Virus record (IMG/VR): IMGVR_UViG_3300024520_000311
Span: 1 to 32,573 of that record
Reading direction: 5' to 3' (one strand)
Origin: a virus
DNA: 32,573 nucleotides
Shown here: one piece after another, positions 4,135 to 22,424 of the stretch
Layout of the letters: every line of letters begins with the position of its first letter
Position numbering within the stretch: the stretch's first letter is position 1
The notes under the pieces: model-generated
What the model was told of the DNA's origin: nothing
Databases searched by the model: none
Seen by the model: the letters and a program-made list of their open reading frames with translations, nothing else
Translations under genes and position numbers: made by a program

Positions 4135-4290
4135 CTCAGTGCGTTAAACTGCTCCGCCTCATAGACTTGGGAGCACTCCACCTCATATATTTTGGATCAC
4201 TCCGCTTCACATATTTTTGGAACGCTCCATCTCATAGATTTGGGAGCGCTCCGCCTCATAGATTTGGGAGTGCTTCTTTTTAAAAATTAG
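4135..4290. repeat. 24-bp tandem repeat array (right array, inverted relative to the left one)
   Basis: CTCC-type unit starts lie at 4152, 4176, 4200, 4225, 4249 and 4273: a 24-bp period with a single 1-bp insertion in the third unit. The best units read CTCCGCCTCATAGATTTGGG. Their reverse complement (CCCAAATCTATGAGGCGGAG) aligns with the left-array unit CCCAAATTTATGATTTGGAG. Degenerate pieces (CTTGGGAGC at 3964, CCACCCTAT-like stretches) are scattered through 3960-4150. The array sits just upstream of terS. Confidence 0.85.
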
Positions 4291-4326
4291 GGAGCAGGTG
4301 TCCCCGAATCCGGATTTTCTTAAAGG

Positions 4327-6778: not shown

Positions 6779-6996
6779 CCCCACATATCCTCTTGCTCTA
6801 CCCGCTCCATCTGCTTCTTAATATCTTTGGAGGGGTGATAAGCCTTAAACTTTTTGAATGGCATCGGCGGAATGAAGCCGCCTTTCTTGTTGGAGAGTTT
6901 CATCCCCTGGCTTGCTATAATAAACCATGCCAAAGACATACCGGACATATTTCCCAGCACGAATAGTAATGTGTATATAATAATTTCTTTACTCAA
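6775..6996 (-). CDS. Small single-span membrane protein, 73 aa
   Basis: Residues 4-28 (EIIIYTLLFVLGNMSGMSLAWF) are a membrane helix; the remaining ~45 residues are basic and likely cytoplasmic, ending QMERVEQEDMWG. The start is a TTG at 6996 preceded by AGGGGGAG within the end of the TerL nuclease gene, and its stop overlaps the next start. No family recognised. Its place directly after the terminase could be coincidental. Confidence 0.6.
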   Translation of the reverse strand: MSKEIIIYTLLFVLGNMSGMSLAWFIIASQGMKLSNKKGGFIPPMPFKKFKAYHPSKDIKKQMERVEQEDMWG

Positions 6997-7681
6997 ATTG
7001 ACTCCCCCTAGCTCGTTTCGATTTCTTTTCTAGCAATTTGAGTTTCTCTCGTAAATTCGCAGGGCGTTTAATATCCTCGGCAGGCCAGATCGCCCCCCAG
7101 TCATTGGAGTGAGCCTGCTTAATTGCCTGCAGGGCGATACACGCTGCGACGACCCTATCTTTTCCGCCCATCAGTATGTCCCCGCCTGGCTCAATGACTA
7201 GTGTCATCATTTCACGCAAAAGCGCCTGGTCCCATAACTGCAGAGTGCCTTCTCTGACTGCGGCGACAAACTCATCCAGCATTAACATTTTAGATTTTTT
7301 ATTTGAGTGCCAACCAATCTTTTTGGTATAGGCTTCTGATCTTTCTTCTTTTATCTGACGGGTGTAAACATTTAAATAACCTTTTCTTTTTACTTGTGCC
7401 ATCGTGGCGTGACCGTGGTTATTTATTTCCACTGCAACTAGTGCTTGATTATAAAACGATCCAATTTTACAAACTAACTCGCCAAATAAGTCGGGGTCCA
7501 TCTTGCCGTGCCACGAAGCACAGTGCTCAAGTCGTTTGTTAATAACAAAGACGGAAGAAAAATCCCCCAGCTCTAAACCTTCCGCGACGTCTGCACCGAG
7601 TGCATAGATGTCTCCGGGGTTTGGCTCCTGGTAAACTTTTAAACGACCATCAGCTCTTGGTGTTAGTGTTATGCTCGACAA
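6989..7681 (-). CDS. terL: Large terminase, C-terminal nuclease half, 230 aa (split gene)
   Basis: The RNase H-like headful nuclease that cuts packaged DNA. It opens with GRLKVYQEPNPGDIYALGADVAEG, the junction usually found between ATPase and nuclease in intact TerL. Acidic residues fitting the three metal ligands are present: D31 (GADVAEG), E85 (VAVEINNHG) and D175 (GGKDRVVAA). It starts at a TTG with GGAG 6 nt upstream, in a different frame from both the ATPase gene and the 65-aa ORF between them. The nuclease alone would have no motor, so I infer that it works as a separate chain in complex with the ATPase half. Its end overlaps the next gene. Confidence 0.85.
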   Translation of the reverse strand: MSSITLTPRADGRLKVYQEPNPGDIYALGADVAEGLELGDFSSVFVINKRLEHCASWHGKMDPDLFGELVCKIGSFYNQALVAVEINNHGHATMAQVKRKGYLNVYTRQIKEERSEAYTKKIGWHSNKKSKMLMLDEFVAAVREGTLQLWDQALLREMMTLVIEPGGDILMGGKDRVVAACIALQAIKQAHSNDWGAIWPAEDIKRPANLREKLKLLEKKSKRARGSQFE

Positions 7682-7847
7682 GGTGACTCCATGTTTGAAT
7701 TTTGCGCTTCACTTTGCCGCAAATTTGGCATCGTGTGGTGATACTTTCGGTCTGCTTGTCGAAATCTACGTTTCGTTCTATCAATTCGTAGTGTCCGTGA
7801 CGAAATAAAGCACAAATTAACTGCTTTAATTGACGCTTAAAGTTCAT
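7650..7847 (-). CDS. Zinc-ribbon-like protein inserted between the two terL halves, 65 aa
   Basis: Start ATG 7847 has GAGGAAAA upstream inside the ATPase gene end. The protein has a lysine-rich N-terminus, C-A-L-F-R-H-G-H near residues 11-18, and a C-x2-C knuckle in TRCQICGKVK near residues 37-46, suggesting a small metal-binding domain of the kind seen in many tiny phage proteins. It overlaps the ATPase gene by 11 nt and the nuclease gene by 32 nt, in a frame different from each. It could bridge the two terminase halves, bind DNA, or be a passenger whose insertion split terL. Confidence 0.6.
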   Translation of the reverse strand: MNFKRQLKQLICALFRHGHYELIERNVDFDKQTESITTRCQICGKVKRKIQTWSHLVEHNTNTKS

Positions 7848-8865
7848 AACATTTTTCCTCGCCCTTAAGAGCCTTAGCTTTCGCCATATCAAGTAGATCA
7901 AGTATTAATTCGGAGTCAAACACCGTCCTGCCGGATGCAATGAATGCTTCTTCGGCGGAAGCGGGGTATTCTTGTTTAAATTGCGAGACAGGGTCCATTA
8001 AAGCGTTACCCATCTCGTTTCTAATCTTCCAACGTCGCCATGCGAGCTTTGTGTCGGTTATGAGAGGGAAACGTCGCTTAATATCTTCTTCTTCTTTGTT
8101 ACAGACAAAAGATTCGTCCCACATTTCGTATTCGGGGTTTTCCCACCATGGAAAAAACACTGGCGTGTAATCTGACTCACCTGCCTCTGCCATTTTCCAT
8201 CTAATGTAAAATTCTTCGCCTTCACCCGCCATACCATTGGCAGTTGACTCCATAATCACGGTCGTGCCGATTTGTCTCGGTACAGCTTGTAATAACCCCG
8301 TAATTACCTTGCCTCCTTTCTTCCAGAAGGCACATTCACTCATATGCAGCGTATTTATCGTTCCCGACCGACCGGCAGTCTCTTTATTGGCGGTTTCGAC
8401 GGAAATTGAAGATAATAAGCCTTTATAGGCAACATCATCGGCTTTTGCCTTATTATCGCCCAAAAGTGGGTTTTCAAAGACTAATTCCTTCTTATTTGAG
8501 TATCTTTTCATTGGCTGTACGAATTCCGGACTATAATTGTAATACCGGTTGCACATGCCAAATAAATTCGCAGTGGCGTCTTGATCGTGGGCAATGATAA
8601 CGGCACGCTTGTATTTGTTGGTCGCACAAATGTGATACGTTAAAGCGGTCGACCAAGTTGAGATACCAATCTGCCTAGCTTTCAAAACTATAATACGAAC
8701 TGGCTTTTTGTATCGTTGTGCTTTTACAATTTGCCACATCTTTTCCTGGTAAGAATTAAATCTTAGCGGAACTAAAGTTGATTCCTTAGTCAGGATGTTC
8801 AGGTACTTGGTGTAGTACGATAAATCCCTAATGGCTTCGGCGGTTGTCCTAGCAGGTTCGATCAT
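7837..8865 (-). CDS. terL: Large terminase, N-terminal ATPase half, 342 aa (split gene)
   Basis: The packaging ATPase that pumps DNA through the portal. A variant Walker A (KARQIGIST, residues 62-70) of the type used by many terminases, a Walker B region with catalytic glutamate (TLHMSECAFW, E177) and a coupling motif MESTANG (204-210) are all present. The C-terminus reaches the typical ATPase end PASAEEAFIASGRTVFD and then stops, just where an intact TerL would continue into the nuclease. The ATG overlaps the stop of the upstream methyltransferase-like gene (ATGA). No residue needed for ATP hydrolysis appears lost, so this is a genuine split rather than decay. Confidence 0.9.
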   Translation of the reverse strand: MIEPARTTAEAIRDLSYYTKYLNILTKESTLVPLRFNSYQEKMWQIVKAQRYKKPVRIIVLKARQIGISTWSTALTYHICATNKYKRAVIIAHDQDATANLFGMCNRYYNYSPEFVQPMKRYSNKKELVFENPLLGDNKAKADDVAYKGLLSSISVETANKETAGRSGTINTLHMSECAFWKKGGKVITGLLQAVPRQIGTTVIMESTANGMAGEGEEFYIRWKMAEAGESDYTPVFFPWWENPEYEMWDESFVCNKEEEDIKRRFPLITDTKLAWRRWKIRNEMGNALMDPVSQFKQEYPASAEEAFIASGRTVFDSELILDLLDMAKAKALKGEEKCYEL

Positions 8866-9284
8866 AGTACCTCATATATCCTAAACCAGCCGCCCACAAT
8901 TAACCGGCTGTAAATTTCGGCGAACTTGTTCTTCCGCAACAGCTTACCCCACTGAGCATCATAATAAACGATATACCCTTGCGCATCTTTTAGGTGGGCA
9001 TTTAGTCTTGCCGTATTCTGAGCAGCAAAAGGATTAAACATATAATAAATAGTAGGCTCACCGCTGGCGGGAGTGTCGAAGAAGTCCTCACCTTTGGTTA
9101 TTTCATAACCTGTAATAGAGGCGAAGCCACTTACTTTAGAGGTCACAAAGCCTTCACCCCCACCAATATCTACAAAGTGATACTCACTTCTAGTAACCAG
9201 TGCATCTACTCTTTCAAGCATGAACTTAATCACATCTGACTGAGTGTTGGCGTTGTAAATTCTAGGCCGGACATCTCTTCCCAT
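8862..9284 (-). CDS. Small SAM-dependent methyltransferase-like protein, 140 aa
   Basis: FVDIGGGEGFVTSKV near residues 37-51 is a good SAM-binding motif I (hydrophobic-x-D-x-G-x-G-x-G), followed by GYEITKGEDF, an acidic motif II at the expected distance, and YYMFNPFA near 80-87 in the place of motif IV. The protein is short for a class I methyltransferase (usually about 200 residues or more), and no target-recognition domain is visible. The order of motifs resembles small phage or ribosomal-type enzymes. Coupled by TAATG to the 56-aa gene and by ATGA to the terminase ATPase. Substrate unknown: DNA, RNA or protein. Confidence 0.55.
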   Translation of the reverse strand: MGRDVRPRIYNANTQSDVIKFMLERVDALVTRSEYHFVDIGGGEGFVTSKVSGFASITGYEITKGEDFFDTPASGEPTIYYMFNPFAAQNTARLNAHLKDAQGYIVYYDAQWGKLLRKNKFAEIYSRLIVGGWFRIYEVL

Positions 9285-9454
9285 TATGGCGCGTCTGTCT
9301 CTACTAATTCAATTACAATATAAGATTGATCGGAAGGGTCTAACTGAATAGACTCAACATCAACACTCTGTAACACTTCTGATGGCAGCAATAAGTCCAA
9401 TGCTTCCTGTTTACCAATTCTAAACTTTAGTTTCTGTTTCTTTTGTGCTGCCAT
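9284..9454 (-). CDS. Small hypothetical protein, 56 aa
   Basis: A short gene found by reading the minus strand in the gap before the methyltransferase gene. The ATG at 9454-9452 has a near-perfect ribosome site (AGGAGGATACA), and the TAA shares its last base with the next ATG (TAATG). The protein begins MAAQKKQKLKFRIGKQEALD, a basic leader followed by an acidic second half ending IVIELVETDAP. No domain recognised. The strong ribosome site and the exact coupling make it a confident gene call. Confidence 0.75.
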   Translation of the reverse strand: MAAQKKQKLKFRIGKQEALDLLLPSEVLQSVDVESIQLDPSDQSYIVIELVETDAP

Positions 9455-9463
9455 TGTATCCTC

Positions 9464-10204
9464 CTAATTGGCGTGCCCAACAATAAGTATCCCGTTGTGA
9501 TTGCAATGTAAATTCTCCTGGTCAAAGCCATGGGTTATATGCTCCGCAGTTAGTGGTACATAATAGGCATATTGAACAAAGGAATGAGGAGCAACAGCCC
9601 CACCGTTATCTATTTGTTGAAATAAATTGTTTAAATGATACACCTTTCCGGATGTAGTAACCGCAGTAATCCCCACACCATTATAAGCTATCCCTGACCA
9701 AATTATTCCACCGATAGCTGCACTTCTAATCTGTTTATTTCCTATGTGAATTATTACCCCCTTCTCTCCGGATCCATCATTATGATTTAAATAAAGGTTT
9801 TTCCCGTCCGTTGTTAAGTCTCTAATTATTGAAGAAGGGTTAGGACCAAAGTTTACGTTAAACATGTTAGCCAGGAGTTTTCCAGCCTTGTTCATTGCAG
9901 CCACTTTCTTAGTTTTAACAGATAGCATCCCAACAGTATTGTCATCATAATAAGCAACAAATAAGTTGATCCCATCAGTAACTATGCCTGTTAAATACTG
10001 AAGCCCTGGCAATGCTGGTCTTAGGTCAATTCTTGCTGTTACCCTGAAATTTCCATTAAGTATTTGAGCTATGTTTAAATAGTATTGTTCGGTAATATAA
10101 TGATTGTGACCATCACTACAGCCACCAGTAAAGATAAGAGGTGCAGCTATATCAGCAACATACCTGTCATGTTGTTCGTTGTAGAATCCCGAACCCTTTG
10201 CCAT
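9464..10204 (-). CDS. Beta-propeller-like protein, 246 aa, possible virion appendage
   Basis: Repeated blade-like segments are visible: TDGINLFVAYYDD, TDGKNLYLNHNDG, YNGVGITAVTTSGKVYHL and SDGHNHYITEQYY, each a strand-turn-strand around a small D/N-G turn, with spacing of about 40-60 residues. That suggests a propeller or a related all-beta fold. There is no signal peptide. It is coupled by TAATG to the 458-aa repeat-rich structural-type protein upstream, so the two may form one appendage. Possible histidine-rich ends (GHNHYI near the start, HCNHNG near the end) might bind metal. Receptor binding is inference; a catalytic propeller cannot be excluded. Confidence 0.5.
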   Translation of the reverse strand: MAKGSGFYNEQHDRYVADIAAPLIFTGGCSDGHNHYITEQYYLNIAQILNGNFRVTARIDLRPALPGLQYLTGIVTDGINLFVAYYDDNTVGMLSVKTKKVAAMNKAGKLLANMFNVNFGPNPSSIIRDLTTDGKNLYLNHNDGSGEKGVIIHIGNKQIRSAAIGGIIWSGIAYNGVGITAVTTSGKVYHLNNLFQQIDNGGAVAPHSFVQYAYYVPLTAEHITHGFDQENLHCNHNGILIVGHAN

Positions 10205-15099: not shown

Positions 15100-16059
15100 A
15101 TGGCATTAGAATTTTCACAAATCACATCTTTGACTGAAAGACATTTCATCCCCCGTTTAGTGGATGGTGTTTACAACTCAAAGGCATTTACTGCACGTCT
15201 GGCTCGCCCGGACAAAATGCAGATGAAAGATGGAGGTCATGAAATTTTGGCTCCCGTCATTAACTCACAACCTGGCGTTGGCGGTTACTTCGACGATCTA
15301 GCTACACTAGATACTTCTCGTACCGACAACATCACAGCTTCTAAGCACCAATGGCGTCAACTTTATGAGCCAATTCGTGTCTCTAGAAAAGAGCTTTTAC
15401 AAAATAATGGCGATGCTGCAAAGCTTAGTCTTGTTAAGTCTAAAGTTCAGATTGCTGAAAAACAGTTCAAAGAAAATTTGGCCCTAGGTCTTTTTTCTGA
15501 TGGTACTGCAGGATCAGGCGCTGGTACGACCGATCAAATTGACGGCCTACAAAGTGTTGTTTCTACAAGTTCTACCTATGGTGGAATTGCTGTAGCTGAC
15601 TTCGCGGAATGGGTTGCTATTGATAAGTCTAACGGCGGGACAGATCGTGCCCTAACTTTGAATCTTATGCAAGCTGCCTTCGGTGCCGCTAGTGAAGATG
15701 ACGAGAAACCATCTGTTGCTGTTTGTCGGCAAAATGTTTACGATCAAGTTTGGTCTTTATACCAACCTCATCAACGATTGATGAGTGAGGAAATGCACAA
15801 ACTAGGTTTTCCCAACACTTTAGTTTTTAACGGGATTCCTTTGATTGTTGATAGTCACTGTAAAGCACAAACTATTTATTTTTTAAATGAAGAGTATTTA
15901 TTCTTAGCTGTTCACAAAGACGAGAACATGAGAAAAGAAACTCTTGAAAGATTAGAAACTTCAAACTCAATGTTAATGAGAATCTTCTGGATGGGTAATT
16001 TAATTTGCAACAACAGACGATTCCAAGCTCAGCTTGGTGACATTGAAGTAGCAGCTTAG
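15100..16059 (+). CDS. Major capsid protein, HK97-fold type, 319 aa
   Basis: The shell-forming coat protein. It follows the scaffold and shows the pattern of a common phage coat family: an N-terminal TERHFIPRLVDGVYNSKAF, then GHEILAPVIN, FDDLATLDTSRTDNITASKHQWRQLYEPIRVSRKELLQN (E-loop and spine helix), a IAEKQFKENLALGLFSDG helix, IDGLQSVV, and a C-terminal NLICNNRRFQAQLGDIEVA beta strand. The codons end largely in T or A, as often in very highly expressed genes. AAGGATTAGGA precedes the start; the decoration-like gene follows 9 nt later. Confidence 0.85.
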   Translation: MALEFSQITSLTERHFIPRLVDGVYNSKAFTARLARPDKMQMKDGGHEILAPVINSQPGVGGYFDDLATLDTSRTDNITASKHQWRQLYEPIRVSRKELLQNNGDAAKLSLVKSKVQIAEKQFKENLALGLFSDGTAGSGAGTTDQIDGLQSVVSTSSTYGGIAVADFAEWVAIDKSNGGTDRALTLNLMQAAFGAASEDDEKPSVAVCRQNVYDQVWSLYQPHQRLMSEEMHKLGFPNTLVFNGIPLIVDSHCKAQTIYFLNEEYLFLAVHKDENMRKETLERLETSNSMLMRIFWMGNLICNNRRFQAQLGDIEVAA

Positions 16060-16067
16060 GAGGCACT

Positions 16068-16589
16068 ATGAAAAAATTAATTGTTTTATTTGTTTTGTTG
16101 TCACTACCTGCACTTGGTGTAATTAGTAAGCCCTTTGGTGCTGACTTTGATAATACTGGGACTCTTAGAACACAAGATCCTATTGACATCAATGTTAAGT
16201 TTACCTCTGCGGTTGCTGCTAACGAACTACAAGTTTGGGATAGCACCGCTGCCGACGGAGCCACTGTCGACACTTCTGATTCAGAAAGTGCCGCTGTTGG
16301 TGACAAAGTAGCTTGTGTATCTGTAGCCACTAAGGCCGCAGGTAAAGTTGGTAAATGTCGTGTTTACGGAAAGATGACTTTGAGATTTGCTCACTCTGGG
16401 AACGGTGGTGACAATCTTGATGCCACTTTTAACGAGGAAGTTTATCTTGCTGGTCCCACTGCGGGCCGGGGAATGGTTGCTGGGATTATTTCCCCTTCAA
16501 CTTCCTCTCCTCTAGACCACCCAATTGGTGTGGCACTAGAAGCTAAGACAGCTACTGGAGACATTAAGGTTTTTATTAACCTACTTTAG
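16068..16589 (+). CDS. Decoration-like protein with an N-terminal Sec signal peptide, 173 aa
   Basis: Residues 1-20 form a textbook signal peptide: MKK, then LIVLFVLLSLPALGVIS, with a plausible small-residue cleavage region at ALG or VIS. The rest is a beta-rich domain with NVKFTSAVAANELQVW, AVGDKVACVSVAT, GKMTLRF, GRGMVAGII and HPIGVALEAKTATGDIKVFINL, resembling capsid decoration/head-fibre proteins of the DUF2190 type (memory). Two cysteines (KVACVSV, VGKCRVY) could form a disulfide after export. A strong site (TAGGAGGCACT) couples it to the coat gene. A secreted relative of a decoration protein or a membrane-anchored capsid partner are alternatives; a cytoplasmic decoration protein would not need a signal. 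Confidence 0.65.
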   Translation: MKKLIVLFVLLSLPALGVISKPFGADFDNTGTLRTQDPIDINVKFTSAVAANELQVWDSTAADGATVDTSDSESAAVGDKVACVSVATKAAGKVGKCRVYGKMTLRFAHSGNGGDNLDATFNEEVYLAGPTAGRGMVAGIISPSTSSPLDHPIGVALEAKTATGDIKVFINLL

Positions 16590-16590
16590 T

Positions 16591-17733
16591 ATGAAAAATT
16601 CTTACGAATTATTCTGGGGAGCGGTGGTAACACTTCTCCCCATTTTTTATCGACGGGAATGGGGCAGTCGATTATCAATGCAAGTGGGGTTGGTCGCTTG
16701 TATATGTGTGAGCATACTTTTGTTTGGTGGCGGTATATCCAAGTATATACCAAAGAAGTCTTTCGTCCTGATCTGCATCTTGGGATTATTTAATAGAGGT
16801 AATATCGCCTCTTTCACGTTTTTCATTCAATGGGTTTCAGTTTGTTCTGGACTTCTGTTGGTTTCGCAAATGAGCGAAAAAATTAAAAATATAAATTGTG
16901 TATACACTATGTTGGCGATAGCTTGTATCTTTCATAGCCTCTGGGTTGTAATAGAGTGGGTGGGGTTCAGTCCTTACCACTGGTTCTTTATGAAACTAGA
17001 GGGAACCAAAGTTTTAACTAACCACGGTTACGGATACACCTCGGGGGTGTACACAAAACCCCTAACTGTCGGGGCTTTCAGCCATTACAATCTGACCGGT
17101 GCCTACATAGCAATGTGCCTGCCGGTGTTTTTTAGACGCGCATTTTTACCGTACATTTTCCTGCCAATTGGCGCAATTTTACTCCTAGGTTCGGCACTGC
17201 CGATGCTAACTGCAGCAGTTGGGGCGACAATTTACATAGGGTGTAAACTTAGAGTTAACCTTCAAAAATGCATAGCCTCAATAATTTCAGCGATTTGTTC
17301 GCTAACTATCCTCTGCCATATACCGGCAACCCATAAGTATTTCTCCTGGTTTAAGAACAATGGGAGATTCCCAGTCTGGGAGGATACTATCACCTGGCTG
17401 ACCGGACTAGACGTGCTAATCGGGCGGGGTCTTGGGTACTTTTATGACGAGTTTCCTCGGACATTTACCCGCCATGGACAGGTATTTCAGCAAGCTCATA
17501 ACGAATACTTAGAAATATATATCGCTTTCGGTGCCATTGGAGTTATCCTATTCCTATGGTCCCTCCGACCTGTATTCAAGGCTAAAGATCCTGTACTAAT
17601 CGCAGGAATCCTGGCATCATTAATAAATATGGTTGGTCACTTCACCCTGCACATAGCGGGCACAGCACTAGTGGCCATAATTTACTATTCACAATTGTTC
17701 AAGGAGAAAGAACATGGCAACATCCGCATCTGA
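16591..17733 (+). CDS. O-antigen ligase/polymerase-like membrane protein, 380 aa
   Basis: About ten hydrophobic segments span the protein. The C-terminal half has the Wzy_C/WaaL (Pfam PF04932, memory) signature: NGRFPVWEDTI near residues 257-267, LIGRGLGYF near 278-286, then QAHNEYLEIYIAFGAIGVILFLW near 302-324, including the conserved H-N/D pair. Known relatives ligate or polymerise O-antigen or other surface glycans at the periplasmic face of the inner membrane. The start is 1 nt after the decoration gene's stop, with no strong ribosome site, and the next virion gene starts inside its 3' end, so it is locked into the late operon. Phage homologues known to me act in serotype conversion; the substrate here is unknown. 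Confidence 0.75.
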   Translation: MKNSYELFWGAVVTLLPIFYRREWGSRLSMQVGLVACICVSILLFGGGISKYIPKKSFVLICILGLFNRGNIASFTFFIQWVSVCSGLLLVSQMSEKIKNINCVYTMLAIACIFHSLWVVIEWVGFSPYHWFFMKLEGTKVLTNHGYGYTSGVYTKPLTVGAFSHYNLTGAYIAMCLPVFFRRAFLPYIFLPIGAILLLGSALPMLTAAVGATIYIGCKLRVNLQKCIASIISAICSLTILCHIPATHKYFSWFKNNGRFPVWEDTITWLTGLDVLIGRGLGYFYDEFPRTFTRHGQVFQQAHNEYLEIYIAFGAIGVILFLWSLRPVFKAKDPVLIAGILASLINMVGHFTLHIAGTALVAIIYYSQLFKEKEHGNIRI

Positions 17734-17989
17734 AGTCCGTAGTGAACCAATGGGCGCATCTAAAATTCAAGTTTTTGATGTAGAGTTATCTGGCACCGTC
17801 ACGTCTGGAACTTTCAGTACTGGTCTTGATTACATTTATTGGGCAGGTATTTCATCTAGCACAGCAACTTCTAAACCTACTATTGGTAAAAACTTTTCAA
17901 CTACGTCAGTAGTTACTAACGGGGACGTTTTTATTGAAGATGCCGCCACGGATGATACAGGTATCTCTGTTATAGTTTACGGTCGGTAA
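17714..17989 (+). CDS. Small virion-type protein, 91 aa
   Basis: Beta-rich, with the pattern KIQVFDVELSGTVTSGTFSTGLDYI, YWAGISSSTATSKP and a GISVIVYGR ending, like small head-associated proteins encoded just before adaptor genes in many phages. AAGGAGAAAGAAC inside the ligase gene end is its ribosome site, so it overlaps the ligase by 20 nt. Its TAA shares a base with the next ATG (TAATG). No cysteines and no signal peptide. A minor capsid or decoration role is inference. Confidence 0.6.
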   Translation: MATSASEVRSEPMGASKIQVFDVELSGTVTSGTFSTGLDYIYWAGISSSTATSKPTIGKNFSTTSVVTNGDVFIEDAATDDTGISVIVYGR

Positions 17990-20902: not shown

Positions 20903-21058
20903 ATGTATACATTTGTTTTAGGACAATCAAAACTAGATAAAGCTACTTTAGAAAAAGAGATTGTATTTGATTCTAGTATGGGAATACTGTTTGGAACAAT
21001 ATCTGCCTTCTTTTTACATAGAGCCTACAAAAAATACAAACAATGGAAGAGGTTATAA
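20903..21058 (+). CDS. Small single-span membrane protein, 51 aa
   Basis: A short gene in the gap between the tail hub and the fibre-like gene. AGGAGTTATA precedes ATG 20903 and its TAA shares a base with the next ATG (TAATG). Residues ~24-40 (SSMGILFGTISAFFLHR) are hydrophobic, followed by a basic tail (AYKKYKQWKRL), predicting one helix with the C-terminus inside the cell. Its place directly before a signal-peptide-bearing protein suggests, but does not show, a joint envelope function. Confidence 0.7.
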   Translation: MYTFVLGQSKLDKATLEKEIVFDSSMGILFGTISAFFLHRAYKKYKQWKRL

Positions 21059-22098
21059 TGTTTAGATTATTTTTATTACTAGGTTTTATAACACCTACGC
21101 TATACGCGGGAACCTGTTCATCAATTTCACGTACTAACAACAGTGCCAGCACGGTACTTACCTCGACCAAATATAATGCTGATCATAATGTTGCCTATGC
21201 ACAATTAAACGACCTGGACGGCGGGTGTATCACGGACGGTACACTTGAGTTTTCCAGCCTTGCCACGGCAGAGTTTGGAGTTATAACCAACGGGACTGAA
21301 CGTGGGTGTGAAGTGACCAGGTCAGACGGCAACACACTGTCGGTCGCTAGTTGCCTGTCGGCAGTAAACGGTAACCAGATAAACACTGCCACCGCAGCCA
21401 CCGTGACTTGGGGTTGTACAGGTTGTGCCGCTGAGGTCGCCTCAACTGAATACTTTATTTATATAAAAGACGGTAGTAACGGTTTCTCATTAGATGGTCA
21501 ACTGCTTATCTCTACAACTGGACCTAGCAGTAAGGGTTACGACGGATCAAGTAACAAGGCGCTTGCAAGATTTAGAAACGACGGAGCCTCTAGTATAGCA
21601 TCAGGTAATATCTCCCAGTTCACCGTCACCGGGTTTGGTGGTCGTGGCGTATCTGATGTTTGTTCATTTGAAGATTGGGCGACTGGAGAAGGTCAACGTG
21701 TTAACGGCACTGTTCCTGCTCTTAGGCCCCTTAACAGGCTGGCCAGTGATGTGAGGGGATCTTGTTCGTTTGCCTCTTTTGCAGCTCACCAAGTAACCAT
21801 AAACCAAGCCGGGTATTACAGGTTTGAAGGCAGTGGCGTATTTAGAGGGACGGGAGAAAGTATATTATATTTAGCTAATGTAACCACTGGGGATCTTCCA
21901 CTACTTAGTCACAACTTAGAAGCCGGTGCCGGAGAGTCTGGTAATCTTAGGTTTCAAGGTTATTTATATGTGCCAGCAGCAACAGTTTTTGAAATGAGAG
22001 CTAATTATTCTCTAGTTGGTAACGCCTGCGGATCACCACTTCCTCCATTTGGACTTGAGGTTCTTTGCTCTAAATTATTAATAAGTAGGTACGAATAG
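21058..22098 (+). CDS. Cysteine-rich, signal-peptide-bearing fibre-like protein, 346 aa
   Basis: The ATG at 21058 (TAATG, preceded by GGAAGAGG) gives MFRLFLLLGFITPTLYAG, a typical Sec signal with a T-L-Y-A-G cleavage site; an ATG five codons upstream lies inside the previous gene. The mature part begins with a fibre-like NNSASTVLTSTKYNADHNVAYAQLND, a repeat form common in phage tail proteins, and ends with a jelly-roll of the C1q/TNF type (QAGYYRFEGSGVF ... FEMRANYSL). About a dozen cysteines are spread along it, unusual for cytoplasmically assembled virion proteins but natural for a periplasmic disulfide-bonded one. Translation is coupled to the neighbours. Confidence 0.65.
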   Translation: MFRLFLLLGFITPTLYAGTCSSISRTNNSASTVLTSTKYNADHNVAYAQLNDLDGGCITDGTLEFSSLATAEFGVITNGTERGCEVTRSDGNTLSVASCLSAVNGNQINTATAATVTWGCTGCAAEVASTEYFIYIKDGSNGFSLDGQLLISTTGPSSKGYDGSSNKALARFRNDGASSIASGNISQFTVTGFGGRGVSDVCSFEDWATGEGQRVNGTVPALRPLNRLASDVRGSCSFASFAAHQVTINQAGYYRFEGSGVFRGTGESILYLANVTTGDLPLLSHNLEAGAGESGNLRFQGYLYVPAATVFEMRANYSLVGNACGSPLPPFGLEVLCSKLLISRYE

Positions 22099-22424
22099 TG
22101 AGTATCTTTAAAGAATATTACCACGAGAAATACGGGCTAAAAACTTTAGAGTCCACGTATGGTTTTATTTGCTACAATATAAAAGAAGAGACATGTTTCA
22201 TAGGCGAGATATTTGTTAAACCAGAACGCCGAGGGGACAATAGAGGATCTGTACTAGCAGACGAGATAGCCAACCGAGCTAAGGAAGCCGGCTGTAAATT
22301 TCTAACCTGCACAGTGCAGTTGGCCGGCAAAGAACCCGAACGGTCATTAGTAGCTATAATAAAATATGGGTTTAAGATTACAGATGTCGTGGGGACGGGA
22401 CTGTATTTAACTAAGGAATTATAA
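22098..22424 (+). CDS. GNAT-type N-acetyltransferase, 108 aa
   Basis: The central CFIGEIFVKPERRGDNRGSVLADEIANRAKEAGC is a recognisable GNAT motif A: beta strand, then R-R-G-D-N-R-G-S, an acetyl-CoA pyrophosphate loop, then an amphipathic helix. The C-terminus IKYGFKITDVVGTGLYLTKEL matches the motif B region. Short but complete for small phage GNATs, which are often encoded near tail genes. Starts at GTG 22098, whose G is the last base of the upstream TAG. Substrate unknown; it could modify a virion, host or surface amine. Confidence 0.7.
   Translation: MSIFKEYYHEKYGLKTLESTYGFICYNIKEETCFIGEIFVKPERRGDNRGSVLADEIANRAKEAGCKFLTCTVQLAGKEPERSLVAIIKYGFKITDVVGTGLYLTKEL

Follow-up and report, generated by a model that had tools for sequence, protein, structure and literature searches.

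Glycosylated virions occur in tailed phages such as mycobacteriophages, in which phage enzymes attach sugars to capsid or tail proteins, and virion glycosylation of this type is carried out by cytoplasmic glycosyltransferases that use nucleotide sugars. In bacteria, genes for O-oligosaccharyltransferases are commonly, but not always, found close to pilin genes: 21 of 31 pglL genes were located beside or near a pilin gene, the PilO gene adjoins its pilin gene, and the O-oligosaccharyltransferase activity of Acinetobacter baylyi PglL was shown on the adjacent ComP (PMC3643930). A Wzy_C gene is also present in the temperate phage VarioGold, where VG_p25 is located outside the virion operon and the neighbouring VG_p26 has an N-terminal signal peptide (PMC9658991).

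The window, i.e., the whole stretch of DNA that was analysed, comprises the 32,573 nucleotides of IMG/VR virus record IMGVR_UViG_3300024520_000311, a 32.6-kb linear fragment. As listed in Table 1, it contains a Wzy_C gene in a late operon with the order portal, scaffold, SU10/Mx8-like major capsid protein (MCP), 173-aa protein, Wzy_C, 91-aa protein, SU10-type adaptor, head-closure-like protein, and fibre-like protein; homologues of the MCP in Mx8 and Mx9 were found by tblastn. The VarioGold pair VG_p25/VG_p26 is an interesting parallel to the pair in the window, formed by the 173-aa protein and the Wzy_C enzyme. The wzy reading frame starts with ATG, encodes 380 aa, is separated by 1 nt from the stop codon of the preceding gene (TAG-T-ATG), and shares 20 nt with the following gene, so that the placement given in the original prediction, within the virion operon and tightly packed between its neighbours, was confirmed. 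No clear ribosome site precedes wzy, which, together with the start one base past the upstream stop, fits translational coupling.

Table 1. Features of the Wzy_C locus in the window.
Feature	Position	Strand	Basis
Major capsid protein (MCP, SU10/Mx8-like), cassette anchor	15100..16059	+	phrog_9953 E 7e-53, PF17236 E 7e-7
Capsid-decoration-fold protein, 173 aa, with predicted N-terminal Sec signal peptide	16068..16589	+	AF2 model, Foldseek, nine-sequence alignment
Predicted signal peptide, MKKLIVLFVLLSLPALG followed by VIS	16068..16118	+	Heuristic; kept in all nine homologues
wzy (Wzy_C, PF04932), polytopic membrane glycosyltransferase, candidate O-oligosaccharyltransferase	16591..17733	+	Profile, fold, alignment
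Small virion-operon protein, 91 aa, overlapping the 3′ end of wzy by 20 nt	17714..17989	+	Homologues in relatives
Fibre-like protein with predicted signal peptide, probable start 21058	21043..22098	+	Position, N-terminal motif

Elsewhere in the window, the terminase large subunit is encoded in two separate ORFs on the minus strand (7837-8865 and 6989-7681, together 6989-8865), suggesting a frameshift, an insertion, or a split gene. Near the left end, at 1-158, 302-459, and 4151-4296, there are arrays of 24-nt repeats and one 79-nt direct duplication (99% identical), and the first and third of these regions are similar in inverted orientation. No integrase or repressor was seen among the genes scanned in this fragment.

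The original prediction that wzy encodes an enzyme of the Wzy/WaaL family was borne out by profile search and by structure prediction. The product matched the Wzy_C profile PF04932 with an E-value of 1.8e-9 and a score of 38.0 bits, above the gathering score of 31.7 bits, and 31 of 32 phage relatives matched the same profile at E-values of up to 0.1. For the AlphaFold2 model (pLDDT 84, pTM 0.86), the sole confident match in the PDB was the O-antigen ligase WaaL (7tpg, Foldseek E 2.8e-4); a second structural alignment gave Z 21.1 over 334 residues for WaaL and Z 10.6 for the next row, the rows after WaaL being SEDS peptidoglycan polymerases (Z 9-11). The motifs NGRFPVW, GRGLGYF, and AHNEYLEIYIAFG are present, and in a profile of the 32 phage relatives the functional residues R265 and H313 of WaaL align with R259 (17365-17367) and H303 (17497-17499) of the phage enzyme, both of which are invariant in 32 of 32 homologues. 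The position of the first WaaL Arg, the diphosphate-binding R191, is non-basic in the window and in most relatives (mostly Gln or Ala), and among the relatives aligned only L053 has an Arg there. No match to the PglL-specific motif PglL_A (PF15864) was obtained for the 32 Wzy members at E-values of up to 0.1, a motif that PilO also lacks (PMC3643930). NCBIfam gave no name above cut-off, the sole match to the TfpM family reaching 31 bits versus a cut-off of 600 bits, and PHROGs gave no name for the enzyme. A ligase, a polymerase, and an O-oligosaccharyltransferase are inseparable by fold and sequence for this Wzy_C enzyme.

A separate origin of wzy had also been suggested on the basis of its codon usage. 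It was found that ATA codons are indeed more frequent than in the MCP gene (16 of 40 Ile codons versus 0 of 16), but their share is equally high in other late genes (20/41, 19/29, and 33/43), and the similarity of codon usage to neighbouring genes, although lowest for wzy in the late operon (0.655), differs only mildly. The evidence for a foreign origin from codon usage was judged to be weak.

The gene upstream of wzy, which encodes the 173-aa protein, has a good ribosome site (TAGGAGG) in front of its start, and the N terminus of the protein, MKKLIVLFVLLSLPALG followed by V, is a textbook Sec signal peptide in our heuristic prediction. This protein had no Pfam or PHROG match. A search with its AF2 model (pLDDT 69 overall, 80-90 in the core) using Foldseek returned phage decoration or head-fibre proteins for all of the top 20 matches (prob about 1.0), with HFTV1, the phi29 gp8.5 base, TW1, Pam3, and T1 at the top and SHP and lambda D lower, and the comparison with the HFTV1 decoration protein gave Z 13.2 for a model with a pLDDT of only 69. 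In an alignment of nine sequences, two cysteines are invariant, C83 (16314-16316) and C97 (16356-16358), and they are located on adjacent predicted strands, which would fit an oxidizing compartment.

The order MCP, signal-peptide decoration protein, and Wzy is kept in eight related contigs (L003, L004, L005, L007, L008, L047, L048, and L049), and the gene is thus fixed in the late operon. In two others, L009 and L011, both genes of the pair are absent and the small gene comes next after the MCP gene; among close relatives the pair is either located between the MCP and adaptor genes or missing as a pair, and the MCP tree is compatible with either loss or original absence in L009 and L011. A homologue of the 91-aa protein in L008 (8383-8709) has a signal peptide that is absent from the homologues in the window, L003-L005, and L009. 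When the window was compared with L003, L004, and L005, the identities were 60-79% for the MCP, 35-56% for the decoration protein, and a flat 25-34% for Wzy, which did not track the order of kinship, the window being closer to L005 than to L003. This flat identity, independent of that of the MCP, suggests that the enzyme was swapped or replaced, or that it adapted very fast to host glycans.

Two alignments of Wzy and four of MCPs were used to search viral contigs, and signal peptides were called with a home-made heuristic (a hydrophobic 10-mer, a preceding K/R, and an AxA-like site) rather than with SignalP. The searches yielded 55 distinct viral Wzy_C genes of this kind (clusters at 90% identity), which form 31 clusters at 40%. 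In 51 of 53 testable cases, the immediate upstream gene on the same strand encodes a protein with a predicted signal peptide, at a median gap of 3 nt. When only genes of at least 80 aa were counted, a signal peptide was predicted for 51/52 upstream neighbours versus 81/516 of all remaining genes in these loci (Fisher p 3e-35), and for genes farther upstream of wzy the value was 27/325. One of the two exceptions, in L186, is the second of two tandem Wzy_C-type genes (7760-9969) that lie behind one exported protein, the first gene being directly behind it. The pair is found beside MCP genes of four or more unrelated families (phrog_9953/SU10-like, phrog_3437, phrog_371-like, and one with no PHROG match). 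No homology to the 173-aa protein was detected for the exported partners from other lineages (hhalign probability 18%), and a virion role for them is suggested by position and weak matches.

Among MCP-anchored loci in which 2.5 kb or more of downstream sequence was available, an exported protein was found nearby in 45 of 45 loci with Wzy and in 20 of 56 without it. Five loci scored as having Wzy in this comparison were left out of the count of 51 in 53. In these (L194:7428-8483, L197:7437-8495, L198:7361-8347, L200:7378-8361, and L222:7943-8980), a polytopic protein with R..VW and (N/S)D(Y/F) motifs is encoded directly behind a signal-peptide gene; the two that were scanned, L194 and L222, had no Pfam match, and we judged all five to be divergent Wzy proteins from their motifs and hydrophobicity, possibly an unnamed branch. 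The lone exported proteins reach 1222 aa, in L134; in this locus and in L136, proteins of about 1200 aa follow the capsid genes, about 500 and about 512 nt, respectively, past the MCP gene. Therefore, the exported protein can stand alone and the enzyme almost never occurs in the absence of an exported protein, an asymmetry as would be expected for a modifying enzyme and its substrate.

With moderate confidence, we interpret the Wzy_C protein as a dedicated O-oligosaccharyltransferase-like enzyme that would modify its exported decoration-type neighbour in the periplasm. The near-obligate pairing with an upstream exported gene of capsid-decoration type points to a protein acceptor rather than to lipid A-core, and the O-oligosaccharyltransferase interpretation is favoured by the layout of a Wzy_C gene with an exported-acceptor gene, as in PilO-pilin and PglL-ComP. 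In the proposed mechanism, wzy would be the enzyme half of a two-gene cassette, and the decoration-fold protein would be sent to the periplasm by its Sec signal peptide. There the enzyme would take a host-made glycan linked to undecaprenyl diphosphate and transfer it to the exported protein, as PilO/TfpO and PglL do for the pilin of the neighbouring gene. At lysis, the contents of periplasm and cytoplasm would mingle through the holin holes, and the decoration protein, now glycosylated, could attach to finished capsids, so that the virion would gain a host-type sugar coat. Counting against O-glycosylation are the missing PF15864 motif, the non-conserved position of WaaL R191, and the TfpM match far below the cut-off, as well as the heuristic calling of the signal peptides and the undetected homology between the partners of different lineages; furthermore, a decoration protein that has already left the cytoplasm has no access to the capsids there until the cell lyses.

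The original prediction had instead suggested a late change of the LPS or O-antigen, in which Wzy_C would ligate or polymerize the O-antigen of the host and thereby reduce re-adsorption to debris or superinfection; if so, we would regard the upstream exported protein as an accessory, such as a regulator, an inhibitor, or a receptor mask. We consider this less likely but a serious alternative: PF04932 membership and the WaaL fold are as expected for it, and phage precedents exist in D3 wzy-beta and VarioGold VG_p25 (PMC9658991). The presence of His rather than Asp/Glu at the motif had been considered as a discriminator between ligases and polymerases (PMC10920833) and was dropped, because the D3 polymerase has His-Asn at this motif too, and so a His is compatible with a polymerase. 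The D3 enzyme has no significant similarity to the Wzy family of the window, and its serotype-converting gene lies on the opposite strand, away from the late operon, and has no exported neighbour. The serotype-conversion genes known from phages are morons that are not part of the late operon, whereas wzy of the window lies inside the virion operon beside a gene for a decoration-fold protein, and genes of this kind are paired almost without exception with exported proteins of several kinds. Nothing was found in support of an O-antigen change that affects adsorption or superinfection, and the recurrence of the pair in unrelated uncultured phage groups suggests the sugar-coating of an exported particle protein rather than a mere change of the host surface.

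A further explanation, which we regard as quite improbable, is that the partner is glycosylated or bound to a surface glycan and kept in the envelope as a receptor mask or decoy, its decoration fold reflecting evolutionary origin only. The predicted signal peptide of the partner, the difficulty of fitting export before lysis with capsid assembly, and the loci that retain the exported protein without the enzyme are consistent with such a host-surface role, whereas the decoration fold and the slot right after the MCP gene are typical of virion parts, and fibre-like proteins in the same operons have signal peptides as well. The signal peptide predicted heuristically for the fibre-like protein of the window is MFRLFLLLGFITPTLYA followed by G, and homologues in L004, L005, and L047 also have one, as does the homologue in L011, a contig without the Wzy pair. 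It is possible that this is a second exported virion-type protein, and the export of such proteins may extend beyond the decoration protein/Wzy pair. A GNAT acetyltransferase gene (22098-22424) is located directly after the fibre-like gene. Finally, it is very unlikely that the N-terminal hydrophobic segments are membrane or assembly anchors rather than cleaved export signals and that wzy is a selfish or hitch-hiking insert with no functional link to its neighbour, because, despite the heuristic calling of signal peptides and the codon usage of wzy as the least typical of the late operon, pairing in 51 of 53 cases across four MCP types, invariant catalytic residues, and presence or absence as a pair would not be expected of an unlinked insert.

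Dedicated O-glycosylation of the exported neighbour can be extended, as a tentative and rather doubtful generalization, to the proposal that several unrelated tailed-phage lineages finish a virion part outside the cytoplasm, with Sec exporting decoration or fibre proteins to the periplasm, a phage Wzy_C enzyme O-glycosylating them there with lipid-linked glycan of the host, and the products being added to capsids at lysis, such that virions carry host sugars. If true, Sec export of such proteins combined with a dedicated phage oligosaccharyltransferase would constitute a novel way of modifying virions, and it would newly link the surface-glycan type of the host to particle properties such as adsorption, diffusion, and recognition. 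The survey also provides dozens of diverse, probably substrate-specific candidate O-glycosylation enzymes for testing, each with a candidate acceptor next door. Among 50,697 named phage records there was no relative of the enzyme, the partner, or the fibre, and in one scan of a genome collection all Wzy genes obtained were of host type (Brevundimonas, Acidobacteriota, and others), with no prophage among them. A published description of the exported-partner/Wzy_C module was not found in a literature search, with most subscription journals outside its coverage. The enzyme family is an established one; the new elements, as far as could be tested, are an exported partner of capsid-decoration type and the recurrence among tailed phages that are unrelated.

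The phage pair resembles PilO/TfpO-pilin of Pseudomonas aeruginosa and PglL-ComP of Acinetobacter (PMC3643930) in that a Wzy_C-family enzyme of the periplasmic face is encoded beside an exported protein, often in the same orientation, and it differs in its location in late operons, in a partner with a decoration rather than a pilin fold, in lacking the PglL_A motif, and in an activity that is predicted. With WaaL (CAZy GT121), the phage enzyme shares the fold over 334 residues and the aligned R265 and H313; unlike WaaL, it has no conserved R191, is encoded outside an LPS locus, and is nearly always behind the gene of an exported protein. D3 wzy-beta and VG_p25 also encode Wzy-type membrane enzymes of phages, and, unlike wzy of the window, they are morons of temperate phages and are not located within the virion operon. 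The mature partner has the fold of the capsid decoration proteins of HFTV1, Pam3, and TW1, the phi29 gp8.5 base, and lambda D (closest Z 9-13), none of which, to our knowledge, has a Sec signal peptide. In contrast to the enzymes of mycobacteriophage-type virion glycosylation, the enzyme of the window is of the periplasmic type that uses a lipid-linked donor.
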